Virus record (IMG/VR): IMGVR_UViG_3300028377_000005
Span: 1 to 64,000 of that record
Length of the DNA stretch: 64,000 nt
Direction: 5' to 3' (one strand)
Source of the DNA: a virus
The notes beneath the pieces are model-generated. The model worked only from the letters and a program-made list of their open reading frames with translations. It did not search any database and was not told where the DNA came from. Shown piece by piece: positions 2,088 to 64,000 of the stretch. Positions within the stretch are counted from its first letter, which is position 1, and the number at the start of each line of letters is the position of its first letter. Both the position numbers and the translations under genes were made by a program.

Positions 2088-4373
2088 ATGGCGCATTTGC
2101 ACGAAGAAATACGAACACGTTACTTGAACTACGCCATGTCCGTTATCATGAGCCGGGCTATCCCGGACGTGCGTGACGGTCTGAAACCTGTGCAGCGTAG
2201 GATTCTCTACGCCATGTATAAGAACCTCCGCCTTACCCCGAGCGCACGGTTTAGAAAGTCCGCTGCGATCGTCGGTGAGGTGATGGGTAAGTACCATCCC
2301 CACGGTGACTCTGCTATTTATGGGGCAATGGTTCGTATGGCACAGGACTTTTCGCTCCGCTACCCTCTGGTAGACGGACACGGCAACTTCGGTTCGATCG
2401 ACGGGGACAATGCGGCTGCCATGCGGTACACGGAGGCTAAACTCCTCCCCCTTGCCGAGCGTTTGCTCGATGAGTTGGGTGACGGAACGGTGGGTTACCG
2501 ACCCAATTACGACGGCACCGTGGAAGAACCCGACGTCCTACCCGCTCAGATCCCCAACCTCCTAGTCAATGGGGCCACGGGTATTGCGGTCGGAATGGCA
2601 ACCAACATCCCGCCTCACAACCTGAAAGAGTGTATCGACGCCTGTTGTGACTTGATCTCTAACCCGTCACGCAAGGTATCGACACTGGTCAAGAACCACA
2701 TCAAGGGGCCGGATTTCCCGACTGGCGGAGTGATCTTGGAGAGCCAAGATGAAATCGCTGAGTCTTACGAAACGGGTTCTGGTACGTTTACAATCCGGGC
2801 GCGGTGGCACCTCGAAAAGGTGAGCGCCAATGGGAAACAAGCTATTGTGGTGACGGAGATTCCGTACAGCACGAACAAAGATACGCTTGTCCAAAAGATC
2901 GCCGAGCACGTGGCGAACAATAAGGTGCCTCAGATTACCGACGTGCGTGACGAAAGCACCGATGAGATTCGGGTCGTCATGGACTTGAAACGCGGGTCCG
3001 ATGAGAACGCGGCCTTGGCTTATCTGTTCAAGCATACGCCATTGGAAGATCGTTTCCACTTGAACATGACGTGCCTCTTACCCTCTGACGACCTCAGCGT
3101 GCCGAAGCCGGATCAGGTAGACTTGAAGACGGTCTTGCAGGCGTTCCTAGACTTCCGTCTGGACGTCACGACCAAGCGGTTGCAAAACAAGCTCGACGGC
3201 CTTGAGTCACGCATCCATATCCTCGAAGCCTTTGAAGTGGTTTTCGGGGATATCCAAAAGGTGCTCAAAATCGTCCAGAAAGCCACGTCCAAAAAGGAAG
3301 CCCGCAAAGGTGTGATGAAAGGCTTTGGGTTCGATGAGGAACAAGCTGAGGCGATCATTTCGATCCCCCTATACCGACTTGCCAATACCGAGAAGGAAGG
3401 CGTCCTGAATGAACTGAAGGCCAAACGCGGGGAAGCCGAGCGTCTCCGTGAAGTCCTCAGCGACGAGGAGGCAAGGTGGTCGCTGGTTCGCACTGAGCTT
3501 AGGGAGATTGGCCGGGCTTATGGGGACGATCGACGTACATCGGTAGAGGTGGAAGTCGAAGATTACGAGTACAACGAAGAGGACTTCATCGAAGCCGAAG
3601 ACCTGTATGTCGTAGTGTCCCGTGACGGTTGGGTGCGCACACAAAAGAGCTACGGCGACCTGTCGAGTTTGCGGTGCCGAGATAACGATGAGATTGGGTG
3701 GGTACTTCCGGGCAACACAAAGGATACCGTCCTGTTCTTTACTTCGGCGGCCAAGTGTTATACGGCGCGCATCGTTGATCTCACCCTGACGACGGGGTAC
3801 GGCGACCCTATCCAGTCCATGTTTTCATTCGGGGACGGCGAAAAGATCGTGAACGTACTCACTCTGAGCGACCTTGTGGTGCCCGGCTCTCCAGACCCTG
3901 CAGATATCGAAATGGTGTCCGTCGCTAAGAGCGGGTTGGCCGTGCGATACAACCTCGATGGTTTTGATGAGCCTTCGACTGTCGTGGGCCGCACTTTCCA
4001 GCGCCTAGAGGATGGGGATAGCGTAGTCAATTGCTGTTACCGTCAAGACGGCGATCACGTCGTGCTCGCCACACACAACGGTAGAGGCACTACGTTCGAA
4101 GCCACCGAGGTCAAGAGTTACAAGGGTCCGGGGAAAGGCGTGAAGTCTATCAACATTCAAGATGGGGATCTGGTACTGGCCTTTACCCTTTGTGGGGATA
4201 ACCAGTCTGAAAACCTGTACGTCGAAACGAACCGGGGTGCGGAGCGGATGGTCACTCACCAGACGTACAAGCCCACCAAGCGTGGTAACAAAGGTTACAC
4301 GATCATCAAGCGCGGCCATTTGATTCGGTGGAAGCGCCAGCCTGTAGAAATCAACTATCCCGGAGACGAATGA
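2088..4373 (+). CDS. Type IIA DNA topoisomerase subunit A (GyrA/ParC-like)
   Basis: This 761-residue subunit should bind, cleave and rejoin DNA in a type II topoisomerase. The N-terminal winged-helix and tower part is strongly conserved: [19 protein letters not shown] at about residues 24-41, [12 protein letters not shown] at 68-79, and [17 protein letters not shown] at 100-116 with catalytic Tyr114. [20 protein letters not shown] follows. The C-terminal part from about residue 515 has beta-pinwheel-like repeats such as [10 protein letters not shown] and GKGVKSINI. It lacks a clear GyrA box (QRRGGKG type), so supercoiling ability is doubtful. The residue matching E. coli GyrA Asp87 is Gly79. 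No GyrB/ParE partner is in the window. Start ATG 2088 has AAGAG about 9 nt upstream. Phage type II topoisomerases usually support replication; that role is inferred. Confidence 0.97.
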
Positions 4374-10922: not shown

Positions 10923-11870
10923 TTAGACACCGTACCATTTGTTGTTCCAGATGAAAGATCCGTCGTAGTTTACCGGGATCAGGTTGGGCTGCATGACTTC
11001 ATTTTCATCGTCACGGTAGACCATACAGAACCCGTTCATCCAGTTCGGGTTTAGCATGTAATCGCACTGTTCGATGTCGAACAGGCCGCCATTCTCAATA
11101 GCCCACCGGTTACCTGTGTAGCCCTTGCGATGGTGGAAAGCGAGCCTGTGAACGTGTCCTGTGATGATGTATTTGAAGCCGCCACGTTCCAGTTCACGTT
11201 TCGCCGAGTAACCGGCGTGCCCACTGATATGGGTGCCGTGGTAAAGCGCCAGATCTCCAAGCCATACGATATCGCCATATTGCTTGTACTTGATCCCGAG
11301 GCGGTCGAATTCAAGCAACGACTCCAGTTCGAATGCCCGGAGGCCATAAAGGCCGTGCTGTTGTTTGATCAGGCGACGTAGACGTTCCTCATGGTTGCCT
11401 TCCGTGTACCAGATATCCGCCAGCGGACAGTAACGTCGTAGCTGGTCCAAGATCTCGAGTCCCTCATCAAGTTCCTCTTGGAGAGTGGGAGCACCCGGCT
11501 CTTTGTGGAAGCTACTGATCGAGTAGCAATCGAGAAAGTCGCCGTTGATCACGATCGTATCCGGCTGGTTGTCCCGACAAAATTCGAGGACTGCAGCCAC
11601 ACCATTTTTATTGTGGAAAGGAACATGGACGTCGTTGAACACGACGATCTTTTCAATTCCATCGGGCAGGGTACAGGTGCTTCGGAAAAGAGACTCGGCC
11701 TCATCCGAAGCAAGGTAGTTCGTAGGGGCCTCTAACCCGTGCCTTTTGAACGCCGAACCAAGTGAATTTGCGGACTCGTCTAGTTCTTCCAACGCTTGAC
11801 TATAGTCGTGTGATCTGGTAAGAATAGCAAGCGCTTCTTCGATACGATCTTCTGTCCATTTTTTGCTCAA
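10923..11870 (-). CDS. Calcineurin-like metallophosphoesterase with N-terminal HTH
   Basis: A 315-residue two-metal phosphoesterase of the calcineurin superfamily. Metal-binding blocks are FNDVHVP (D and H), INGDFLD, TEGNHEERLRR, and the pair HGTHISG and TGHVHRL. The first 70 or so residues are helical, with a resolvase-like pattern (WTEDRIEEALAIL), as in many phage metallophosphoesterases. The start is TTG 11870, supported by a strong GGAGGTTG site immediately upstream. The substrate is unknown; nucleic-acid or nucleotide ends are plausible. It leads a two-gene minus-strand operon with tmk. Confidence 0.9.
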   Translation of the reverse strand: MSKKWTEDRIEEALAILTRSHDYSQALEELDESANSLGSAFKRHGLEAPTNYLASDEAESLFRSTCTLPDGIEKIVVFNDVHVPFHNKNGVAAVLEFCRDNQPDTIVINGDFLDCYSISSFHKEPGAPTLQEELDEGLEILDQLRRYCPLADIWYTEGNHEERLRRLIKQQHGLYGLRAFELESLLEFDRLGIKYKQYGDIVWLGDLALYHGTHISGHAGYSAKRELERGGFKYIITGHVHRLAFHHRKGYTGNRWAIENGGLFDIEQCDYMLNPNWMNGFCMVYRDDENEVMQPNLIPVNYDGSFIWNNKWYGV

Positions 11871-54220: not shown

Positions 54221-57200
54221 ATGCCTGTAGAACCCCCAAAATTTGTAACGCCTAACGGACAGACAAAAACCACGACCCTAGACTTGGTAACGTCAGTACG
54301 TGATCAAGTGCTCACGGGTGAGTTGTCTTCGGATATTGTTGATGTTCAGGTGAAGGTCAACAACGAACCGTTCAAGAGCGACTCAAACCTCGTCTCGTTC
54401 GATCAGGATTCGTTTACGGTACCTAACCCTAATGTCTTCCCGGAAGGGCTACGCTTGGACTACGGGGCCAACAAGATCCAAATTCGCATCATTGATGTGA
54501 CGGGTGGTGTATCTACACCGGCTGTAGCTTCGATTAATGTGATACGGGATTCGGACCTCGATCTGGTGGTATCGCCTCCTTCGGGACTGAGGGTACGTCG
54601 CCGGTCAAATGAAGTCGAGATCGTGTGGGCACAAAACGACCTCCCCAATGTCATCGGCTACAATGTATACGGAGCGATTGATAGCGGAGGTGGTACCCAA
54701 GGTTACATCAAGCTCAATAAAAACCTCATCACCGAGGTGGCGTTCGAAGAAACTGAGCTTACGGGTGTCGCTGAAGACTCCACGTTCTATACGAGCGAAG
54801 GCGGCCAGTTGCGCATTCTCTTGGTGGAAGAGGATTTCAATGACAACCCGGTCAAGACGGTAGGGGAAAGCGTCGTCACCACAAGCCTCCGGGCGACCAA
54901 TGAGATCAAAGTCACGACCTCCCTTGATGGGGTGGAAACCCGTGACTACCTCCATTTCGTACACGACCGGGTGGCGACTGAAGATGATGGCGTCATTAAC
55001 AATGAGTTTTTCGCCGACGTCCCGAATGATGAACCTCTGTTTTATGTAATCACTACAGTTGCTTACGACCCGGACACAAATCGGCAGATCGAAAGTACAT
55101 ATAGCTCTGAGCTTGTGGGCTTGCCACTGGTAATCACTACGGGCCTCCAAGAGATTCCGTCCAAGTCTCAGAACGATATTGTCCGGGACTACCTGTCTTC
55201 GATCACCCGTACCGACAACCAAGTAAGCGCGATTCCCGGCTCGGTGGTTCGAGATGTGTTCATTGAACCGTTTGCGTCTGAAACCGAACGGCTCCATTTC
55301 ATCGCCGGGTTCATTCGTCGCTCCCAGAGTTTCTCGACCTTGTTGGCCATTGACGACCTCGATGGTGATGGTGAGTCAGATCCGGTAGCTCAAAACCCCT
55401 ATAAACAAGCCCTGAAATCGGCGCTTGGTATTGACCGTGATTCCGATGTTCAGGCGCTGATTGACGACTCCTTTGAAAAACTGGCGAGTAATGTCCAGAA
55501 AGCTCGTGGGGGCGCAGGTTTTGCGATTGGGCAAGCAATCTTTTACACGACGACGGAACCGACAACGGACCTTGTGGTGGAAGAGGGAACGATTATATCG
55601 ACCGAATCCAGCCAAGACAATCCTTCGGTATCGTTCACAACGACTTCCCGTGTTGTGCTTCCGTTCGATGTGAAGGATTCGTATTACAATTTGCGTAAGA
55701 AGCGCTGGGAGATCCAAGCCAACATCCGAGCAACTGAAGCGGGCGAAGACGGTAACGTAGTTGCCGGGGGAATCAACCGGGTACTTGGCGGTGCTTCCTC
55801 CATGCAAGTAGAGAACCTTGAAGCTACACGGTTCGGGCGGGACCGGGAAAGCAACGCCCGGCTTGCCGAACGTGCTATCCTTGCGTACTCCAGCGTGGAT
55901 GTTGGTACGGAAGGTGGCTATCTATCCACAGCCCTGAAACAACAGGGTGTGTTCCGGGCCAAGGTGGTCAAGTCCGAAAGCGAATTTATGATGCGAGACT
56001 ATGACGATCTCCGCGAAAAACATATCGGAGGCAAAGTAGACGTATGGTTGCAAGGTCTTGAAGAAGTGCAGGTTACTGACACCTTTGCTTTGCGTTTCAG
56101 GGTGGCTCGGAACATCCAGTTCATTCTGGACTCCAACCCCTCCGACCTCATTTTTGTAGCGGACGACCCCCGCCTGTCTCCCGATAATCCGATCACGGAA
56201 TTACTCGGAGCTACTAGCCAACAACAGGCCCAAGGGTTTGGTTTCCGTAACGTATCGACCGGTGAAGATTTCGATCTCACTAATTACACGATCTTAGATT
56301 ACAACCGAATCAAGTTGGATGCAAGCCTAACACAGCCTTCCGTCAGTACCAATGACATCGTGGCTGGTGATTTCCGATTCCAAGAAACGAGTCAATACGT
56401 CTTTAGTCGGCAGCCTGCGTTCGGGGTGGAAAGTATCTCGTCACTCAACACAGGTGCGGTCCTCGAAGAGGGTACAAACTACCAACTTTATCGGGTCGAA
56501 GACCCGTTGCTGGACGGCTATTCGACGCAAGCCCAAGATTACATCGAGATCACTCAGAGCGGGGGCGTGCCCTCCGGGAACACTTTCGTAGTCAATGATG
56601 AAAATCATGTCTTAGTGGGTGAAGCTCCTGAACCCCTTGAAAACTTGGGTGTTAATCCGATCAGTGTTCGTGTCTTTAGTTTGGACCGCCTCACAGAATA
56701 CGATGGCCCTAACTCAGCTTCACCTGATTTCTTGATCCAAGAGGGTGACGAAACGACACCCCTCGAAATTTTCCGGGTACCGTCCGGGTCAATCGGTAAC
56801 GGTGAAGAGGTGAGCGTCGATTACGAGCACGACGAAAACTTTGAAGTGGAGTACACGATCAACAACCTACTTGATCGTGTTCAGGGGGCTATCAACAAAC
56901 AGCGGCATATCACGGCGGACGTCTTAGTCAAGCAAGCCATTTCAAATGAAGTGGAACTTGAAATGACCGTCGTCTTGGAGCCGGGTTCCTCCAGAGCCCA
57001 AGTGGATGCGGACCTCCGAACCAACGTAAGTCAACTGCTCAACAGCAAAGCGATCGGCGAACCCGTTTACCAATCGGATGTGGTGCAAGCGATCGAAAAC
57101 ACGACCGGTGTTATATACGTGGTTATGCCTTTTGCCCGTATGGCTCTTGCCGATGGGTCGCTGATTATCCGGGAGCCGGTTAACAACGATGCCACGTTCC

Positions 57201-57646
57201 TAGAGCAGCAAGGCAACGCTAAGGTTTACGTCCTCAAAGACGGCCTCAATTACCCCACGGTGGCCGGTGGTGGAGATGTTTCCCAACACCACGGGGTCTT
57301 CGAAGATACGCAAATGATGGATCTCGTAAGCTCGTACAACGACCTATTTAATGAGGCAGGCAAAGCATTAGTCGTGGGGGCCGATGGTCTTAATATCGCC
57401 GGGTATAGCGACGACGCCACGTTGACGGCTGCGGGCTATGCTACAGCCACTGAGCGGGAAGCCCGGCGCAAAACACTGACAGCTAACCGCATCTTCTTCA
57501 GTGTGGATGGCAATGATTCCCCGGAAAACCACACGTATGCCGCCACTTACGCCGTGAACAGAGATAGTGGTTCCAAATCTATCATGGTCACTGACGTAAC
57601 CTATCTCGAACTCGGAAACTTTACGATCACATACCAGCAGAGTTAA
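54221..57646 (+). CDS. Baseplate wedge protein, gpJ/gp6-like
   Basis: A 1141-residue wedge protein. After about 110 beta-rich residues, a fibronectin III-like domain appears (PSGLRVRRRSNEVEIVWAQN, then GYNVYGAIDSGG). The baseplate J core starts near residue 320: SAIPGSVVRDVFIEPFASET and RLHFIAGFIRRSQSFS. It continues through QAIFYTTTEPT-like strands to DVVQAIENTTGVIYVVMPFA. AGGTGG lies about 8-13 nt before ATG 54221. Together with the gp25-like and gpI-like neighbours it forms the contractile-tail wedge. The family is usually 350-660 residues; here extra domains extend it. Confidence 0.87.
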   Translation: MPVEPPKFVTPNGQTKTTTLDLVTSVRDQVLTGELSSDIVDVQVKVNNEPFKSDSNLVSFDQDSFTVPNPNVFPEGLRLDYGANKIQIRIIDVTGGVSTPAVASINVIRDSDLDLVVSPPSGLRVRRRSNEVEIVWAQNDLPNVIGYNVYGAIDSGGGTQGYIKLNKNLITEVAFEETELTGVAEDSTFYTSEGGQLRILLVEEDFNDNPVKTVGESVVTTSLRATNEIKVTTSLDGVETRDYLHFVHDRVATEDDGVINNEFFADVPNDEPLFYVITTVAYDPDTNRQIESTYSSELVGLPLVITTGLQEIPSKSQNDIVRDYLSSITRTDNQVSAIPGSVVRDVFIEPFASETERLHFIAGFIRRSQSFSTLLAIDDLDGDGESDPVAQNPYKQALKSALGIDRDSDVQALIDDSFEKLASNVQKARGGAGFAIGQAIFYTTTEPTTDLVVEEGTIISTESSQDNPSVSFTTTSRVVLPFDVKDSYYNLRKKRWEIQANIRATEAGEDGNVVAGGINRVLGGASSMQVENLEATRFGRDRESNARLAERAILAYSSVDVGTEGGYLSTALKQQGVFRAKVVKSESEFMMRDYDDLREKHIGGKVDVWLQGLEEVQVTDTFALRFRVARNIQFILDSNPSDLIFVADDPRLSPDNPITELLGATSQQQAQGFGFRNVSTGEDFDLTNYTILDYNRIKLDASLTQPSVSTNDIVAGDFRFQETSQYVFSRQPAFGVESISSLNTGAVLEEGTNYQLYRVEDPLLDGYSTQAQDYIEITQSGGVPSGNTFVVNDENHVLVGEAPEPLENLGVNPISVRVFSLDRLTEYDGPNSASPDFLIQEGDETTPLEIFRVPSGSIGNGEEVSVDYEHDENFEVEYTINNLLDRVQGAINKQRHITADVLVKQAISNEVELEMTVVLEPGSSRAQVDADLRTNVSQLLNSKAIGEPVYQSDVVQAIENTTGVIYVVMPFARMALADGSLIIREPVNNDATFLEQQGNAKVYVLKDGLNYPTVAGGGDVSQHHGVFEDTQMMDLVSSYNDLFNEAGKALVVGADGLNIAGYSDDATLTAAGYATATEREARRKTLTANRIFFSVDGNDSPENHTYAATYAVNRDSGSKSIMVTDVTYLELGNFTITYQQS

Positions 57647-57647
57647 G

Positions 57648-60326
57648 ATGGCCAACGGATTTAACAACGGAAAGCAAGACCCGTATCCTTTGGTAGAGGA
57701 GGGGAAAGGGTACCAGAAACTTCTCATATCGAGAAGTCAAGCGGTCCTCAACGCTTTAATCAACCTGCTGCCCTCCAACTATGAGTCTAGCGTCGTAGGC
57801 CCGAATTACACGGTCTACATGAAAGCAATGGCTACGGAGTTGGCACGCATTACGATCATCCTAGAGCGCCTCGGCACAGACGTGTCTTTTGATGAGGTGC
57901 GATCTGAGTTTCTCTGGGAGACGGTCGGGTACCTTGTTTTCCTGAACCAACAGTTGCCAGACCTCGAATTCGACGACGAGAGCTTTCGGGATTTCCTCAA
58001 AGCGGTCATCGAAATTTACTTTGAAGGGTCAACACCTGCGGCAATTCGCAAAGGCGTCGAGCTATTCACTTCCGAAGAATTCACCATTCGTGAGAACTTC
58101 GAAGATGCACGCCAAGAGGGCAGCCCGCTTGATGTTAGTGATCAGTTTGGGTTTTCGCTGGACTTTGACCTCCAAGCGAAGTTCCCGAAAGACGTTTTCC
58201 GTTTCGACAAGAACCTCCGGTTGTTGATCGAGATCATCCGCCCGGCGCATACACTTTACCGCCTCCGCTTTATGTTCGGTGAGGACGCGGATCTCCTGAA
58301 CAATGTGACCGACGAAATGCGGATGCACCTCCGCAACTATTACTATGACGATGCTCGTGGGTATTGCGCGGGTATGGCGGGTTTCGATAGTACATCCGGG
58401 TATATCGAATTAGGTAGCCTCAGTGTACTCAAAGACGACGCCACAGACAAGCCCTTGGCTTCCGTTTCGGAAGGCGCAACCCTCTTGATTGAAACCTGCC
58501 TTAACAGTGGGCGTTACACCGTCGTTGGGCACCCTACCTCCAATTCGATCAAGGTCTTTCCGAAATTCGAAGGGGCGGAGGACCCGGTATCTTACCACGT
58601 CGAAGTGGACCGCCTCGGACGCAAAAAAGAGCTACTGGTCGAAGAAGATGTGTCCAGCCAGTTCTACGATACATCCCGGCTTACCGTAGATGGAGGTGGG
58701 CCTTATACCGTCACCGAAATGACGGACACCACACTAACCGCCTCGTCCAACGGTAGCGACGTAGAGTACGTCTGGGACCTTGATGGGGATAACGTATATG
58801 ATGATGCGTCGGGAGCCTCTGTGACGTACACAGCGCCTTCTGGACCCGCTGAGATAACGGTATGGGTAAAGGGGACCGACCAGCGGGGACGTAAGGCCAA
58901 AGATAGTGCCGTTATTGTAGTACTCGATCAGCATCAAGTTCAGATGCTCGGCACAGGTACGTTGACGATCAACGATGTTACGTGGTCCACGTCAGCTTCG
59001 GCCTTGATGAACGGTTCAGGTACCCTTGCCCCTTCGCCTACGGTAGAACACCTCGCCTCTGTTTCAATGGAAGGTGATTCTCTCATGGAAGTGATCCTCG
59101 GGCGCAACCCAGAGGACCCTTGCGCTATCTCAATGTATGGCTTGGCTTTCGTGGAAGTTGAAGCGTTTTTGGATCACAAAGGAGACGCTGATTTAACAGG
59201 AACGGCCTCCTTGGGTTCAACCCCCGTCATGGAAATGTTCAGTGCTGTAGATATGGTGGGGGCAGCTATTACGGATATAGGTGTCACCCAAGTGTTAAGG
59301 GTCTCGGCGGCTATGACGGGATCCGCTACCACCGTAACCAGCCCAACAGCCATCGCCTCGGCAACGGTAACTATGGCGGGGTCTGCCACGACCTCGGTGG
59401 AAAGCGAAGAAATTTCCACAGCATCCGTCTCTATGGTGGGATCCGCATCTATAACAACAGGTGCTCAGGCGTCTACGCCAATAACCACCTCCATGACGGG
59501 GACCGCAACGATTTCCGTCGATTCGACTGTAACACAAGACGTTTCCGTTTCTATGACGGGCACAGCAACGACAACAATCGATTCAACCTACACAATGGAT
59601 CCAACCTCCATTGCCGGGTTGGTTTATTGGATCGACCCCAGCGACAAAGATACCATATACCAAGATCAAGGGGGTACGGTAGCTGTAACTACAGATGGAG
59701 ATCCCGTAGAGCGGATCGAAGATAAGTCGGGTAATGCTAACCACTTTACGAACGAATCCGTAGTACCTTATTGGTCAGAAACAGGGCTCAATAGCATTGG
59801 TAGTTTGGGGTGGGATGCCACTACCCGATACCTGTATGCTAACAGTGTAACGCAAGTGGATACAGGCGCTCCCATTTCAACCTTTGCTGTAGCCATCACA
59901 AATGTTGAGGATGAAAACTACATCCTCAACCACAGCTATTCAGACGGATCCCCGGAAAGCCAGCGCCTTTTGCAATTGGGAGCGAGTTCCGGGGACTGGA
60001 ACCTAACAGGTTTCGACTCGCTAGGCACAGGGCACACGGCCACGATTTCGGGACAAGTCGGAAAAGCCTACGTTGTGAACATTGAATGGGATACTTCCAA
60101 CAATCTGTATGCCCGTACCAGACTCGGCACCGGGTCTAACCTCGGTAATGCCGACGCATCACCTACCTCAAACACGTACATCGAGCTGGGTATGGCCCGT
60201 GATGGAACCAACACAAGGGTGGGATATTTCGATGGACTATCTGGGGAGATCATTTGCTATGCAAGTTCCCTATCAACCTTAGATGAAACCCGATTGCGCC
60301 AGTACCTGTCCGATAAATGGCTCTGA
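57648..60326 (+). CDS. Tail protein I-like protein fused to PKD, repeat and lectin-like domains
   Basis: An 892-residue chimera. Residues 1-230 resemble tail protein I and related wedge proteins (LISRSQAVLNALINLLPSNY, then FRDFLKAVIEIYFEGSTPAA). A PKD-like domain follows (TLTASSNGSDVEYVWDLDGD). Residues 420-650 hold repeats near 30 residues long with a V(S/T)M.G(S/T)A core (AAMTGSATTV, TVTMAGSATT, SVSMVGSASI, SVSMTGTATT). The last 240 residues form a LamG/concanavalin-like module (GLVYWIDPSDKDTIYQDQGG, later RLRQYLSDKWL) that commonly binds glycans. So a wedge protein carries a surface-adhesion arm; the host-binding role is inferred. Confidence 0.82.
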   Translation: MANGFNNGKQDPYPLVEEGKGYQKLLISRSQAVLNALINLLPSNYESSVVGPNYTVYMKAMATELARITIILERLGTDVSFDEVRSEFLWETVGYLVFLNQQLPDLEFDDESFRDFLKAVIEIYFEGSTPAAIRKGVELFTSEEFTIRENFEDARQEGSPLDVSDQFGFSLDFDLQAKFPKDVFRFDKNLRLLIEIIRPAHTLYRLRFMFGEDADLLNNVTDEMRMHLRNYYYDDARGYCAGMAGFDSTSGYIELGSLSVLKDDATDKPLASVSEGATLLIETCLNSGRYTVVGHPTSNSIKVFPKFEGAEDPVSYHVEVDRLGRKKELLVEEDVSSQFYDTSRLTVDGGGPYTVTEMTDTTLTASSNGSDVEYVWDLDGDNVYDDASGASVTYTAPSGPAEITVWVKGTDQRGRKAKDSAVIVVLDQHQVQMLGTGTLTINDVTWSTSASALMNGSGTLAPSPTVEHLASVSMEGDSLMEVILGRNPEDPCAISMYGLAFVEVEAFLDHKGDADLTGTASLGSTPVMEMFSAVDMVGAAITDIGVTQVLRVSAAMTGSATTVTSPTAIASATVTMAGSATTSVESEEISTASVSMVGSASITTGAQASTPITTSMTGTATISVDSTVTQDVSVSMTGTATTTIDSTYTMDPTSIAGLVYWIDPSDKDTIYQDQGGTVAVTTDGDPVERIEDKSGNANHFTNESVVPYWSETGLNSIGSLGWDATTRYLYANSVTQVDTGAPISTFAVAITNVEDENYILNHSYSDGSPESQRLLQLGASSGDWNLTGFDSLGTGHTATISGQVGKAYVVNIEWDTSNNLYARTRLGTGSNLGNADASPTSNTYIELGMARDGTNTRVGYFDGLSGEIICYASSLSTLDETRLRQYLSDKWL

Positions 60327-60385
60327 TCGGTTTTCTGTTTGTAACCTCGAAGTAATGGAAACCGGAACTTTCAAGGAGAATAGTT

Positions 60386-60778
60386 ATGTCCCAAATGACC
60401 AATTATTTGGAAAATGCACTGGTCAATCACGTGCTTCGCAACACGGCATTGACTTCGCCCACAACCGTGTACCTAGCACTTTACGATGCTTCCCCTACCG
60501 ATACAGGTACGGGTGGTACTGAGATCACAGGTACGGGCTATAGTAGGCAGAGCGTAACGTTTACGGCACCTACTAACGGATCCACTTCAAACTCCAGCAC
60601 ACTTAGTTTCACGAACGGTAGCGGCGGTAACTGGACGATTGCCGCTGTTGGTATTATGGATGCCAGTAGTGGTGGTAACATGCTCTTTCACGGCACCCTA
60701 ACCGGAGGCAGTAAAACCGTTGCAGACGGTGATACCATCACGTTCAACGCTGGTGATCTCGACATCACGCTTGCTTAA
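60386..60778 (+). CDS. Tail-fibre-associated protein (Gp80-like family), copy 2
   Basis: A 130-residue paralogue of the gene at 12833, starting MSQMTNYLENALVNHVL behind a strong AAGGAG. It keeps the family signs: SPTTVYLALYD, GTGYSRQSVTF, GGNMLFHGTL and the final DGDTITFNAGDLDITL. It closes the plus-strand virion block, and its stop overlaps that of the convergent gene at 60775. The two copies lie about 47 kb apart, each at the end of an adhesin-containing cluster, and may attach to different fibres. Confidence 0.77.
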   Translation: MSQMTNYLENALVNHVLRNTALTSPTTVYLALYDASPTDTGTGGTEITGTGYSRQSVTFTAPTNGSTSNSSTLSFTNGSGGNWTIAAVGIMDASSGGNMLFHGTLTGGSKTVADGDTITFNAGDLDITLA

Positions 60779-61365
60779 TTGAGCGTTTCGGGCTTGATGG
60801 GTTCTTGGCGGTTCACTTCGTCCATCACGTAATCGCCCCACATGAGGACCACTTTGTTACGGTCCGTATCGTGGGATACCAGAGCAACTTCGGTTTCCGC
60901 ATCCACCGTCGTAACCAACACTGACCTCCCATTATAGGGTGGCGGATCTCCCGGAAGAAGGGGCACGGTCGCAATTGTGATCGCGTCCCTTTTTTCTATG
61001 GTGCTCAGGTCGACGGGTGGTTCTTCGAACCCTACGTACATGAAATCGTCATGCTGCCGGATCACGGGAAGCATCATGCCCGGCTCATATCCCGGAACCG
61101 CAAGTGCCGTCAAAAAATTGACTTCCAGCATCGAGTTTTTGAGAAGGCCAATGTCCCGGAGCATTAGGAACATTTGCTGGTAGCGGTGGATATGGGTGGT
61201 GAACCCTTCCATAAAAACGGCCCTATCCACCTTGAGGGTTTTATCGTCCTCGGCGATAGGGCCGGTCAAAAGTTCGTCTACTTGGTTTTCGAACTCGTCT
61301 TGGAGTTCAGTGAACAGACCACCTAGACGGTCGGATGGAAAAAAGATCGCACTATCGTCAGACAT
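60775..61365 (-). CDS. Hypothetical protein, last gene of the RNA-repair operon
   Basis: A 196-residue acidic soluble protein, with GGGAG about 7 nt before the ATG on the minus strand. It has an N-terminal helix (LGGLFTELQDEFENQVDELL), a His/Tyr-containing helix (HIHRYQQMFLMLRDIGLLKN) and a beta-rich end (VLVTTVDAETEVALVSHDTD). No family was recognised. It lies 63 nt downstream of the RNA ligase gene on the same strand, so it is probably co-transcribed; a repair-related role is only a suggestion. Its stop overlaps the plus-strand gene at 60386 by 4 nt. Confidence 0.62.
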   Translation of the reverse strand: MSDDSAIFFPSDRLGGLFTELQDEFENQVDELLTGPIAEDDKTLKVDRAVFMEGFTTHIHRYQQMFLMLRDIGLLKNSMLEVNFLTALAVPGYEPGMMLPVIRQHDDFMYVGFEEPPVDLSTIEKRDAITIATVPLLPGDPPPYNGRSVLVTTVDAETEVALVSHDTDRNKVVLMWGDYVMDEVNRQEPIKPETLN

Positions 61366-61428: not shown

Positions 61429-62709
61429 TTATTCTGACTGCTCTTTTGCTTTTTGTTTCGCGTCGAGGATTTCACCCTTGATGCCACTGTACAACTCATG
61501 TTGCCACATGACGTCGAAGAGGATCACACTTTCACTGTTATAACAATTCATTATCAATGCAAAGTCCGCTCTAGTATACTGATCTTTAGCGTACAAAGCA
61601 AGGGCCTTTTGTTCCTCTGAAGGGTCCACGGGATGTACCTCTTCGAGGCATTCGGCCAACATGTCACGCACCTCATCCGCACGGGAACGACATTTCGCAA
61701 GCCAATCTAGGTATTGCGTGTGGTACTTTTTGTAGTACTCCAGCGTTTCCTCAGACGTCGAACCCTCGTCGATCAAGTAGGTCTTGAGGGCTTCCCATTT
61801 TTCGAACTCAGGCTTGCCGAAACATATTTTGGTGACAGTTTTAATCGAACAACTGTACCGGAGCGCGAACTCCCACCGCCACCGTTCTGTTTTAGCCTTG
61901 ACCCGGTGAACGATACGCCCGTCCTTTTCGAAGCAGATCACACCCCCTTCCGGCAACCAATCAGCATCCTCTAGGCCCAACACTGTTTCCACCGCCTCCG
62001 CCAGTGTTGTATTCTTGGCAAGGTATTCCACCGGCTTACAGTTGTTATCCTCGGCCCACTCCATCACGCGGTCGTTGGTCCAATACGTGTGGGTGTCCAA
62101 GTCAAACACCGAAAGCACAATCAGATCTTCTCGGTCCCCATATTTAGTGACGCCCGATTCGCATTCCGGGTGCAGAGCTTCACAAACGATGGTTTTACCG
62201 CGAATCACCTCGGGATCGAGCAACGCGGGGTACTGGTCCTCAGCGATGCGTCGAATAGCCCCGACATAATCGAAATCCGCGCCGTGGACATTGATATCCA
62301 CACCTTCGAGCATACTACGGGTCGATACGTAAACCTCACCGTCGTACTCGAAGATTTGCGCCATGTAACCGTCGTCTTTGAACGGCAAACTTACGCGCAG
62401 CGCTTCATCTTGCGCAAGGGCATGGGTTACCTCGTCGACCTTACCCTTTTCGCCGTGGTTGTAAATCTTGAGCAAGGGCAACGACACCACCTCATAAGGA
62501 TCACGTCGGTAAACGATGCCCTTGGCGTAAAGCTGGTGCTCCCATTCCGGCGTGAACAGGATGCTGGAAGCATTCGCAATCACAAGCCCATTGTCGTGAT
62601 CTCGCTGGTTAAGCATTTCATCGCCGTCGATAAGCGACAAGACCTCCTCCGGGTTGTCCCGGAGCTTACCCAAGAGGTAATCGATATGTACGTTCGTTAC
62701 AGCTTTCAT
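61429..62709 (-). CDS. RNA ligase, T4 Rnl1-like
   Basis: A 426-residue predicted ATP-dependent RNA ligase. The motif order matches T4 Rnl1 (374 residues): KGIVYRRD and LPLLKIYNHGE before the active site (Rnl1 RGIMFE and PMEKFFNLNE), motif I KDDGY with Lys111 as the likely AMP-accepting residue (Rnl1 KEDGS), motif III VYVSTRSMLEG, motif IIIa VCEALHPE with Glu177, motif IV PEGGVICF with Glu254, and motif V VHRVKAKTERW with Lys271/Lys273. The C-terminal part is helical, as in Rnl1, which repairs cut tRNA anticodon loops. ATG 62709 is chosen because GGAG lies 8 nt upstream and the ATG overlaps the previous stop (ATGA). The motif match is by eye. Confidence 0.82.
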   Translation of the reverse strand: MKAVTNVHIDYLLGKLRDNPEEVLSLIDGDEMLNQRDHDNGLVIANASSILFTPEWEHQLYAKGIVYRRDPYEVVSLPLLKIYNHGEKGKVDEVTHALAQDEALRVSLPFKDDGYMAQIFEYDGEVYVSTRSMLEGVDINVHGADFDYVGAIRRIAEDQYPALLDPEVIRGKTIVCEALHPECESGVTKYGDREDLIVLSVFDLDTHTYWTNDRVMEWAEDNNCKPVEYLAKNTTLAEAVETVLGLEDADWLPEGGVICFEKDGRIVHRVKAKTERWRWEFALRYSCSIKTVTKICFGKPEFEKWEALKTYLIDEGSTSEETLEYYKKYHTQYLDWLAKCRSRADEVRDMLAECLEEVHPVDPSEEQKALALYAKDQYTRADFALIMNCYNSESVILFDVMWQHELYSGIKGEILDAKQKAKEQSE

Positions 62710-62969
62710 GCTATTTTCTCCGCCACCCATATCAAGGGGTGGTAAATCCACAACACAGTATCATTGATGCGGTCGAATATGCCCTCTCTCAAATCCCACA
62801 TGTGGTAGATTGCACCCACGAAAATGAGGGGCAACGTGACCGGCAGCACTAACAGGCAATAGGCCGCCAGTGCAAGGAGCCCAATCACATAAACAAAGGG
62901 CGTAAGCGTAAGCAGCACAACCGCCAGTGCCTTTTTCCAGAGGGGTGAACGATTAATGGCTATCCGCAT
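62706..62969 (-). CDS. Small membrane protein in the RNA-repair operon
   Basis: An 87-residue protein with one long or two adjacent membrane spans (KALAVVLLTLTPFVYVIGLL, LAAYCLLVLPVTLPLIFVGA) and an amphipathic end (LWIYHPLIWVAEKIA). The N-terminus MRIAINRSPLWKK is basic, so the N-terminus is probably cytoplasmic. It overlaps the phosphatase gene by 17 nt and the ligase gene by 4 nt, so it is translationally coupled to both. A membrane protein between two RNA-repair enzymes is unexpected; it could be unrelated or could anchor them. Confidence 0.72.
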   Translation of the reverse strand: MRIAINRSPLWKKALAVVLLTLTPFVYVIGLLALAAYCLLVLPVTLPLIFVGAIYHMWDLREGIFDRINDTVLWIYHPLIWVAEKIA

Positions 62970-63660
62970 AGTATACCTCTTTCGCTTCCACCTGTACCAC
63001 TTCCCGCTCAGGCCACCTCAGAGCCGCCAAGGTGTTTCCCTTGACGCAAGACGTATCCACGCAACAGTAGTGCTCATGAACGGTCGGGTCGTCCATCCAG
63101 TAGTGTCCAAAGACAACAAACTCGGGGCCTTCGTAATCCCTCCACCATTCGATTCGGGAATTATCCGGGCCGCCACGGAGGCCGTACATACGCAATTTGG
63201 CCTTGCCATTGAACGCATGGACAGCAACGGCTTCACCACCGTCCAGTTCGATCTTGGTAGGCACTTCCTCTAAGAGGAATTCACCTAGCTCGGTTCTGGG
63301 GCTATCGAACGGCCACCCTTGCTCAAGCTCGGAAACCGTTTTCTGTAACCCGTGTGCGATGGAAACGGGGTTGCCTTTCATCCATCGGAACAGCTTGTTG
63401 TCGTGGTTGCCTTGCACCCACAGGGCTTTGCCCGCTATCCAATGGAAATAGGCAAACTGCAGGGCGAGGCTGTTATAATACCCACGATCTGTGATATCCC
63501 CCACCAGCACAAGCATCCGCCCTTCGGGGTGTTCGTACAGGCCATCTTCACCCATAACGTAACCGAGCTTTTCAACGAGTGCGATTAGTTCGTAGTAACA
63601 CCCGTGGACGTCGCCTACGGCGTCGAAGTGGGTAACGTGTTTTGCGTCGAGTGTCGTCAT
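62953..63660 (-). CDS. Pnkp-type metallophosphatase
   Basis: A 235-residue binuclear metallophosphatase closest in pattern to the phosphatase domain of bacterial Pnkp. Metal and catalytic blocks are AVGDVHGCYYELIALVEKLG (Asp17, His19), GDITDRG (Asp55), VQGNHDNKLFRWMKGNPVSI (Asn85, His86) followed by AHGLQKTVSEL, and FGHYWMDDP. The end, CVDTSCVKGNTLAALRWPER then EVVQVEA, mirrors the IDTGCVxGGxLTALRxPE.ExVxVxA of Pnkp. In Pnkp this domain removes 2',3'-cyclic and 2'-phosphates at broken RNA ends. No kinase or ligase domain is fused here, but an RNA ligase gene follows. A general PP2A-like or Ap4A-hydrolase activity is the alternative. Confidence 0.85.
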   Translation of the reverse strand: MTTLDAKHVTHFDAVGDVHGCYYELIALVEKLGYVMGEDGLYEHPEGRMLVLVGDITDRGYYNSLALQFAYFHWIAGKALWVQGNHDNKLFRWMKGNPVSIAHGLQKTVSELEQGWPFDSPRTELGEFLLEEVPTKIELDGGEAVAVHAFNGKAKLRMYGLRGGPDNSRIEWWRDYEGPEFVVFGHYWMDDPTVHEHYCCVDTSCVKGNTLAALRWPEREVVQVEAKEVYYADSH

Positions 63661-63714: not shown

Positions 63715-63743
63715 CTTATACCCTACTTATCGGATGTAGTCAA
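63715..63743 (-). promoter_or_regulatory. Sigma-70 promoter of the RNA-repair operon
   Basis: On the minus strand TTGACT (63743-63738) and TATAAG (63720-63715) are exactly 17 bp apart, with five of six matches in each box; the -10 is preceded by AGGG as at 18868. Transcription would start near 63707, giving a leader of about 47 nt before ATG 63660. The -35 box abuts the start codon of the divergent gene at 63744. Confidence 0.7.
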
Positions 63744-64000
63744 ATGAAAGACCTTAAAGATCGTCTCATCAAGCTCGGCAAGGTGCGTAAGGATTTGCGC
63801 CCCCACCTTCGGCCTGTTTTGGCGGAGTTAAAAAAGCAAGCTGCGTCGGTGCGGGTGCCGGTCACTATGTCTCAGACCTTCCGTCAGATGGAGTGGGAAT
63901 ACATGCACGAGCTTGGGCAGGTGATCATGGCCGAGTTCAACAAACAGGTATCCCGTGAGTCGCAACTCCACAACATCGAGCCTGCTATGGATTCCCGGTT
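63744..64000 (+). CDS. 5' part of a phage gene cut by the window end
   Basis: An open frame from ATG 63744 runs off the right edge after 85 codons. The start MKDLKDRLIKLGKVRKDLRPHLRPVLAEL follows a pattern (LIxLG, then LRPHLRPxL) seen at the N-terminus of several phage proteins of unknown function and common in large marine phages. A Met/Gln-rich helix follows (MSQTFRQMEWEYMHELGQVI). No clear ribosome site is visible. Function unknown. Confidence 0.7.
   Translation, partial: MKDLKDRLIKLGKVRKDLRPHLRPVLAELKKQAASVRVPVTMSQTFRQMEWEYMHELGQVIMAEFNKQVSRESQLHNIEPAMDSR

Follow-up and report, generated by a model that had tools for sequence, protein, structure and literature searches.

A probable RNA end-healing and sealing kit on separate proteins in a phage record of about 116 kb

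The 115,647-bp virus record IMGVR_UViG_3300028377_000005 (G000), from an uncultured phage, probably encodes a complete kit for the healing and sealing of RNA ends, with the activities placed on separate proteins. The case is built by computation on the gene identities, the active-site motifs, a gene order found again in a second lineage and fusions of all three modules in other viruses. An initial annotation, which covered bases 1-64000 of the record (the window, 64,000 nucleotides in length), had read the locus as one for RNA repair in which Pnkp-like activities reside on separate polypeptides, and both parts of this reading are supported by the separate kinase and phosphatase genes and the Rnl1-type ligase described below.

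Organization of the locus

The order of transcription on the minus strand is phosphatase, small membrane protein, RNA ligase and a 196-aa protein (Table 1), with the gene positions, the membrane-protein gene between phosphatase and ligase and the trailing gene all as originally described. The membrane-protein gene overlaps the phosphatase gene by 17 nt and the ligase gene by 4 nt, as in translationally coupled operons. The ligase open reading frame extends over 61429-62751(-), and its start was assigned to the ATG at 62709 based on the 4-nt overlap with the upstream stop codon and the alignment with the start of its relative, which gives a protein of 426 rather than 440 aa. No family match was obtained for the 196-aa protein with the Pfam, PHROG or NCBIfam profiles. 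At its ligase side, the operon adjoins and converges with the tail genes at 54221-60778.

The near-consensus sigma-70 promoter that had been proposed to drive the set is a fair call, given the 10 matches to the 12 consensus positions, the counterpart TTGACA-17-TATAGG at the same position in the related contig L008 (see below) and a low background, with sites as good as TTGACT-17-TATAAG occurring about 0.125 times per kb per strand (about 1 per 8 kb per strand). A generic promoter scan missed the site because it requires a T at the last -10 position.

Elsewhere in the window, a second calcineurin-like phosphoesterase of 315 aa (10923-11870(-); PF00149, E 4e-11) is found in an arrangement unrelated to the repair genes, and a phage-encoded type II topoisomerase subunit is located at 2088-4373(+) (PHROG 551, E 1e-137). 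ARAGORN identified 0 tRNA genes in the whole 115,647-bp record.

Table 1. Predicted RNA-repair genes and associated features (positions in G000; those up to 64,000 are also window positions)
Feature	Position	Strand	Evidence
Sigma-70-like promoter TTGACT-17-TATAAG, 5' of phosphatase	63715..63743	-	10/12 consensus matches
Calcineurin-like phosphatase, 235 aa, Pnkp-phosphatase-like	62953..63660	-	TIGR04075, PDB 4j6o, CthPnkp alignment
Small membrane protein, 87 aa	62706..62969	-	Hydropathy peak 2.5 over 19 residues
Predicted Rnl1-type ATP-dependent RNA ligase, 426 aa, nucleophile Lys111	61429..62709	-	PF09511, PHROG 562, motifs, AF2 model
196-aa protein after ligase	60775..61365	-	49% identity in relative contig
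Predicted stand-alone Pnkp-type polynucleotide kinase, 172 aa	67634-68152 (L003:4634-5152)	-	TIGR04075, 4jst
Predicted 2H (LigT-like) cyclic phosphodiesterase	70629-71186 (L003:7629-8186)	-	Two HMT motifs, PF13563

The RNA ligase

Sequence comparisons and a structure model support the assignment of the ligase to the Rnl1 (T4 RNA ligase 1) family. The protein is matched by the Pfam family RNA_lig_T4_1 (PF09511) with an E-value of 1.5e-8 and a score of 35.2 bits, above the curated cut-off of 28.3, and by PHROG 562, 'RNA ligase' (E 1.6e-16); its relative in L008 falls below the PF09511 cut-off. Residues that are invariant across 11 aligned phage ligases include K111, D113 and G114 of motif I, E177 of motif III, E254 and G255 of motif IV and K271 and K273 of motif V. 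Of the upstream RG...K..N..E element, K81, N84 and E87 are kept, while the arginine of 'RG' is replaced by lysine in both members of the lineage.

An AlphaFold2 model inferred from the 11-row alignment reached a pLDDT of 80 and a pTM of 0.74, as compared to a pLDDT of 34 from a two-sequence alignment. The model predicts a nucleotidyltransferase fold with a helical C-terminal domain, the C-terminal third being all-helical. Its best match in the PDB is T4 RNA ligase 1 (2c5u; E 1e-11, TM 0.40-0.46), followed by the ligase domains of fungal Trl1 (TM 0.47-0.53), and the top ranks are taken by RNA ligases or further proteins of the nucleotidyltransferase superfamily. Thus, the intact motifs I, III, IV and V, the PF09511 score and the top structural match uphold the earlier assignment to the Rnl1 type, and the worry that Lys111 might lie outside a nucleotidyltransferase pocket is answered by its location in motif I of a protein with a predicted fold closest to that of T4 Rnl1.

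The ligase is divergent in sequence. A tblastn search at E 1e-5 gave no match among 50,697 phage records, and relaxed thresholds brought up only weak similarity to Pseudomonas-phage RNA ligases. A profile built from only the two closest ligases missed T4 Rnl1 and every other ligase in the PDB, for which reason we do not count the match of a five-member profile to T4 Rnl1 as independent evidence on this particular protein.

A kinase and a 2H enzyme beyond the window

The initial annotation stated that no 5' kinase gene was visible, which does not hold for the genome as a whole: a stand-alone gene for a predicted Pnkp-type kinase is located 4 kb beyond the phosphatase gene on the same strand, and it was missed because the window ends at 64,000, before the gene is reached. 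Translation from an alternative ATG further upstream, at 68179, would extend the protein to 181 aa. Its match to the TIGR04075 profile is confined to the kinase part (E 4.5e-27, 94.6 bits), and it aligns with the solved kinase of CthPnkp (PDB 4jst, E 4.3e-24), being 44% identical to the Clostridium thermocellum Pnkp kinase domain. The motifs GSSGSGKST, SSD..RG and DATN are all kept. Identity to bacterial Pnkp (41%) exceeds that to the kinase modules of known phage fusion proteins (27-32%), and bacterial Pnkp sequences are also nearest in the kinase tree, but on a long branch. Directly after the kinase gene, with an ATGA overlap, follows a gene whose small product contains two hydrophobic segments.

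Since three genes on the plus strand separate the kinase from the phosphatase, the kinase does not belong to one operon with the phosphatase and the ligase. On visual inspection, the C-terminal half of a protein encoded between the two, at 64542-65549(+), is similar to a tyrosine recombinase or a type IB topoisomerase (DIRGYHANRLM ... VGHEAATLKSNYL). We also considered a methyltransferase-like gene in the same interval, at 65934-66470(-), as an analogue of Hen1, because bacterial Hen1 is a partner of Pnkp1 and Rnl (PMC4411300). This candidate, which had weak Pfam hits only, was rejected with 0 relatives in the PDB.

Another 2.5 kb beyond the kinase is a gene for a putative 2H cyclic phosphodiesterase with two HxT motifs (HMT, HMT). 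It matches PF13563 with an E-value of 1.3e-10 (41.9 bits, cut-off 27) and the RNA 2',3'-cyclic phosphodiesterase profile TIGR02258 with an E-value of 2.3e-9 (37.4 bits, below the cut-off of 65.7). No relatives of this gene were detected in the searched viral contigs or in known phages. Position and function are what tie the enzyme to the repair kit, to which it could be unrelated.

Conservation and module arrangements in other viruses

The contig IMGVR 3300039190_000120 (L008) contains the genes in the same order, with sequence identities of 86% for the kinase, 80% for the phosphatase, 54% for the ligase and 49% for the trailing gene, and it also keeps most of the genes between the kinase and the phosphatase. 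In this contig, two small membrane-protein genes are located in tandem between the phosphatase and the ligase. The kinase, phosphatase and ligase have diverged unequally yet retain all catalytic motifs, a pattern that speaks for selection on each of them. In another contig, the four genes from the phosphatase through the membrane protein and the ligase to the trailing gene show 100% identity, and narrow-pattern scans of viral sequences returned only the same two lineages.

We inspected 63 loci of viruses that encode a related kinase. The kinase is fused to a calcineurin-like phosphatase in about two dozen of these and forms the C-terminus of a protein of about 270-480 aa in most of the others, while a stand-alone kinase is found in a handful. 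A separate kinase together with a separate phosphatase at one locus is seen only in the lineage of this phage. Of the virus records with a related kinase, fused or stand-alone, 33 were checked, and 20 of these contain a PF09511 Rnl1 ligase. In one locus (L022), the Rnl1 gene is overlapped by the gene for a fused kinase-phosphatase, and in another (L083:7992-10493(+)) the kinase, the calcineurin-like phosphatase and Rnl1 form a single chain of 834 aa, a member of PHROG 8238. That the three separate proteins of this phage form one pathway is most strongly supported by such fusions in other viruses.

Some further observations were made in these records. The island L022:5613-10509(+) contains in a row a HAD-like protein (by eye), an OB-fold RNA ligase (PF21189+PF09414), the kinase-phosphatase and Rnl1, and thereby places two ligase types side by side. 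In the L051 record (G017:92405-92944), the frame for the Rnl1 ligase contains one in-frame TAG, possibly due to stop-codon recoding in that phage. The entry MT836289.1 (L013, 'Bacteriophage sp.'), in which a Pnkp-like kinase is fused to an oxidoreductase-like domain, was set aside since it looks bacterial.

Affiliation of the phosphatase

The phosphatase matches Pfam Metallophos (E 1.5e-11), is about 41% identical to C. thermocellum Pnkp and keeps the aligned metal and catalytic residues of CthPnkp (D17, H19, D55, R59, N85, H86, H148, H186 and D202). The initial annotation classified it as Pnkp-type. In a rival reading, it would be an Ap4A hydrolase (PrpE/ApaH-like) or a protein phosphatase acting on nucleotide signals, in which case the ligase and the kinase would be the only RNA-repair enzymes. 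The NCBIfam profiles score 165.5 bits for Pnkp (TIGR04075) versus 144.6 bits for PrpE, and home-made profiles 184 versus 178, such that Pnkp is the best profile in both sets with a lead of 6-21 bits; the 144.6 bits for PrpE are in themselves a point for the hydrolase, despite being below the PrpE/ApaH equivalog cut-off of 340 bits (NF010148). The PDB search gave E-values of 1.6e-34 for the Pnkp phosphatase domain (4j6o) and 1.6e-8 for ApaH, and the protein has the motif GNHD rather than the GNHC of PrpE. In a tree of 85 domains, however, the pair of phage phosphatases is placed on a long branch (2.3) that joins a PrpE-like stand-alone group with weak support (87/74), and among 10 columns that discriminate Pnkp from PrpE, 2 are of the Pnkp type, 4 of the PrpE type and 4 of neither. 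The best PHROG match carries the name 'NinI-like serine-threonine phosphatase', but PHROG 246 itself includes kinase-phosphatase fusions. With profiles slightly in favour of Pnkp and a mixed signal from the tree and the columns, we call the phosphatase Pnkp-like only, a weaker statement than the one first made. Taking into account the kinase of the Pnkp type and the Rnl1 ligase encoded nearby in two lineages, we consider the hydrolase or signalling role unlikely.

Proposed function

We infer that the kit acts on host tRNA to counter a host defence, in the following order of steps. A host ribonuclease, for example an anticodon nuclease triggered by the infection, would generate one end with a 2',3'-cyclic phosphate and one with a 5'-OH. 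The 3' end would be cleared to a 2',3'-OH by the phosphatase, possibly aided by the 2H cyclic phosphodiesterase, and the Pnkp-type kinase would phosphorylate the 5'-OH, whereafter the Rnl1-type ligase, adenylated on Lys111, would seal the break and so restore translation.

Two other functions were weighed against this proposal. The kit may repair phage or host mRNA, or process RNA for regulation, rather than mend tRNA cut by a nuclease; no sequence feature fixes the substrate and the ligase domains of fungal Trl1 rank among the nearest structural matches, but the precedents from T4 and jumbo phages concern tRNA cut by host defence (PMC7824862, PMC6277466), and we find this quite unlikely. It is very improbable that the ligase is mainly a tail-fibre attachment factor, as is T4 gp63, rather than an RNA-repair enzyme. 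Its gene does adjoin and converge with the tail genes, and the full name of PHROG 562 is 'RNA ligase and tail fiber protein attachment catalyst', but this name is inherited from T4, every catalytic motif of the ligase is kept, the operon arrangement is shared with the phosphatase, and the same ligase family adjoins or is fused to Pnkp-like modules in other viruses.

For the RNA-repair kit, the small membrane-protein genes after the phosphatase and after the kinase are an unexplained addition. With the Pnkp-type system split into a kinase and a phosphatase, and with a membrane-protein gene translationally coupled to each, the repair enzymes could be tethered to the membrane as a complex of several proteins, a speculative idea to which we give little credence.

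Comparison with known repair systems

Phage T4 mends PrrC-cut tRNA with a kinase-phosphatase and a ligase, and its kinase is fused to a HAD-type phosphatase. The set described here is similar to T4 Pnkp and RNA ligase 1 in consisting of a predicted Rnl1-type ligase, a 5' kinase and a 3' phosphatase with a presumed role against the cleavage of host tRNA, but its kinase is a protein separate from the phosphatase, which in turn is of the calcineurin-like type. Cleavage by PrrC and similar anticodon nucleases of the host results in a 5' tRNA half that ends in a 2',3'-cyclic phosphate, and the T4 phosphatase takes off cyclic and linear phosphates alike (PMC6277466).

The kinase and the phosphatase are related to bacterial Pnkp, as judged from the identities to the C. 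thermocellum protein (44% and 41%, respectively). However, bacterial Pnkp is one protein of about 850 aa, whereas here there are three proteins and the ligase is Rnl1-type rather than a Pnkp ligase; accordingly, neither of the separate kinase (94.6 bits) and phosphatase (165.5 bits) genes reaches the TIGR04075 cut-off of 750 bits for the one-chain Pnkp. The same set of modules is found in phages with PHROG 246 kinase-phosphatase fusions and a separate Rnl1 (Atu_ph07, Phosso), and in Atu_ph07 a T4-like RnlA is located 3 kb from the fusion. In the PHROG 246 phages the two healing modules are fused, and they are 19-32% identical to the phosphatase and kinase of this phage. The fusion of the PHROG 8238 type (L083) likewise combines the same three activities, but on one polypeptide.

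A survey of 224 jumbo phages reported Rnl1 and Rnl2 ligases along with kinases, 2H enzymes and, in a few cases, calcineurin-like phosphatases, and interpreted such kits as RNA repair that counters defence (PMC7824862). That survey concerned jumbo phages, whereas the present record is about 116 kb in size. Since RNA repair by phages has thus been described before, the novelty is limited to the separate Pnkp kinase and phosphatase and to the presence of the kit in a record of this size.

The arrangement shows that the catalytic modules of bacterial Pnkp function, or have at any rate been maintained, as individual proteins beside Rnl1 in a mid-sized phage, and with the modules on separate proteins, the healing and sealing steps can be tested singly. 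The finding adds to the evidence that phages widely carry kits that would reverse the cleavage of host RNA, here in a record without tRNA genes of its own as a fallback.
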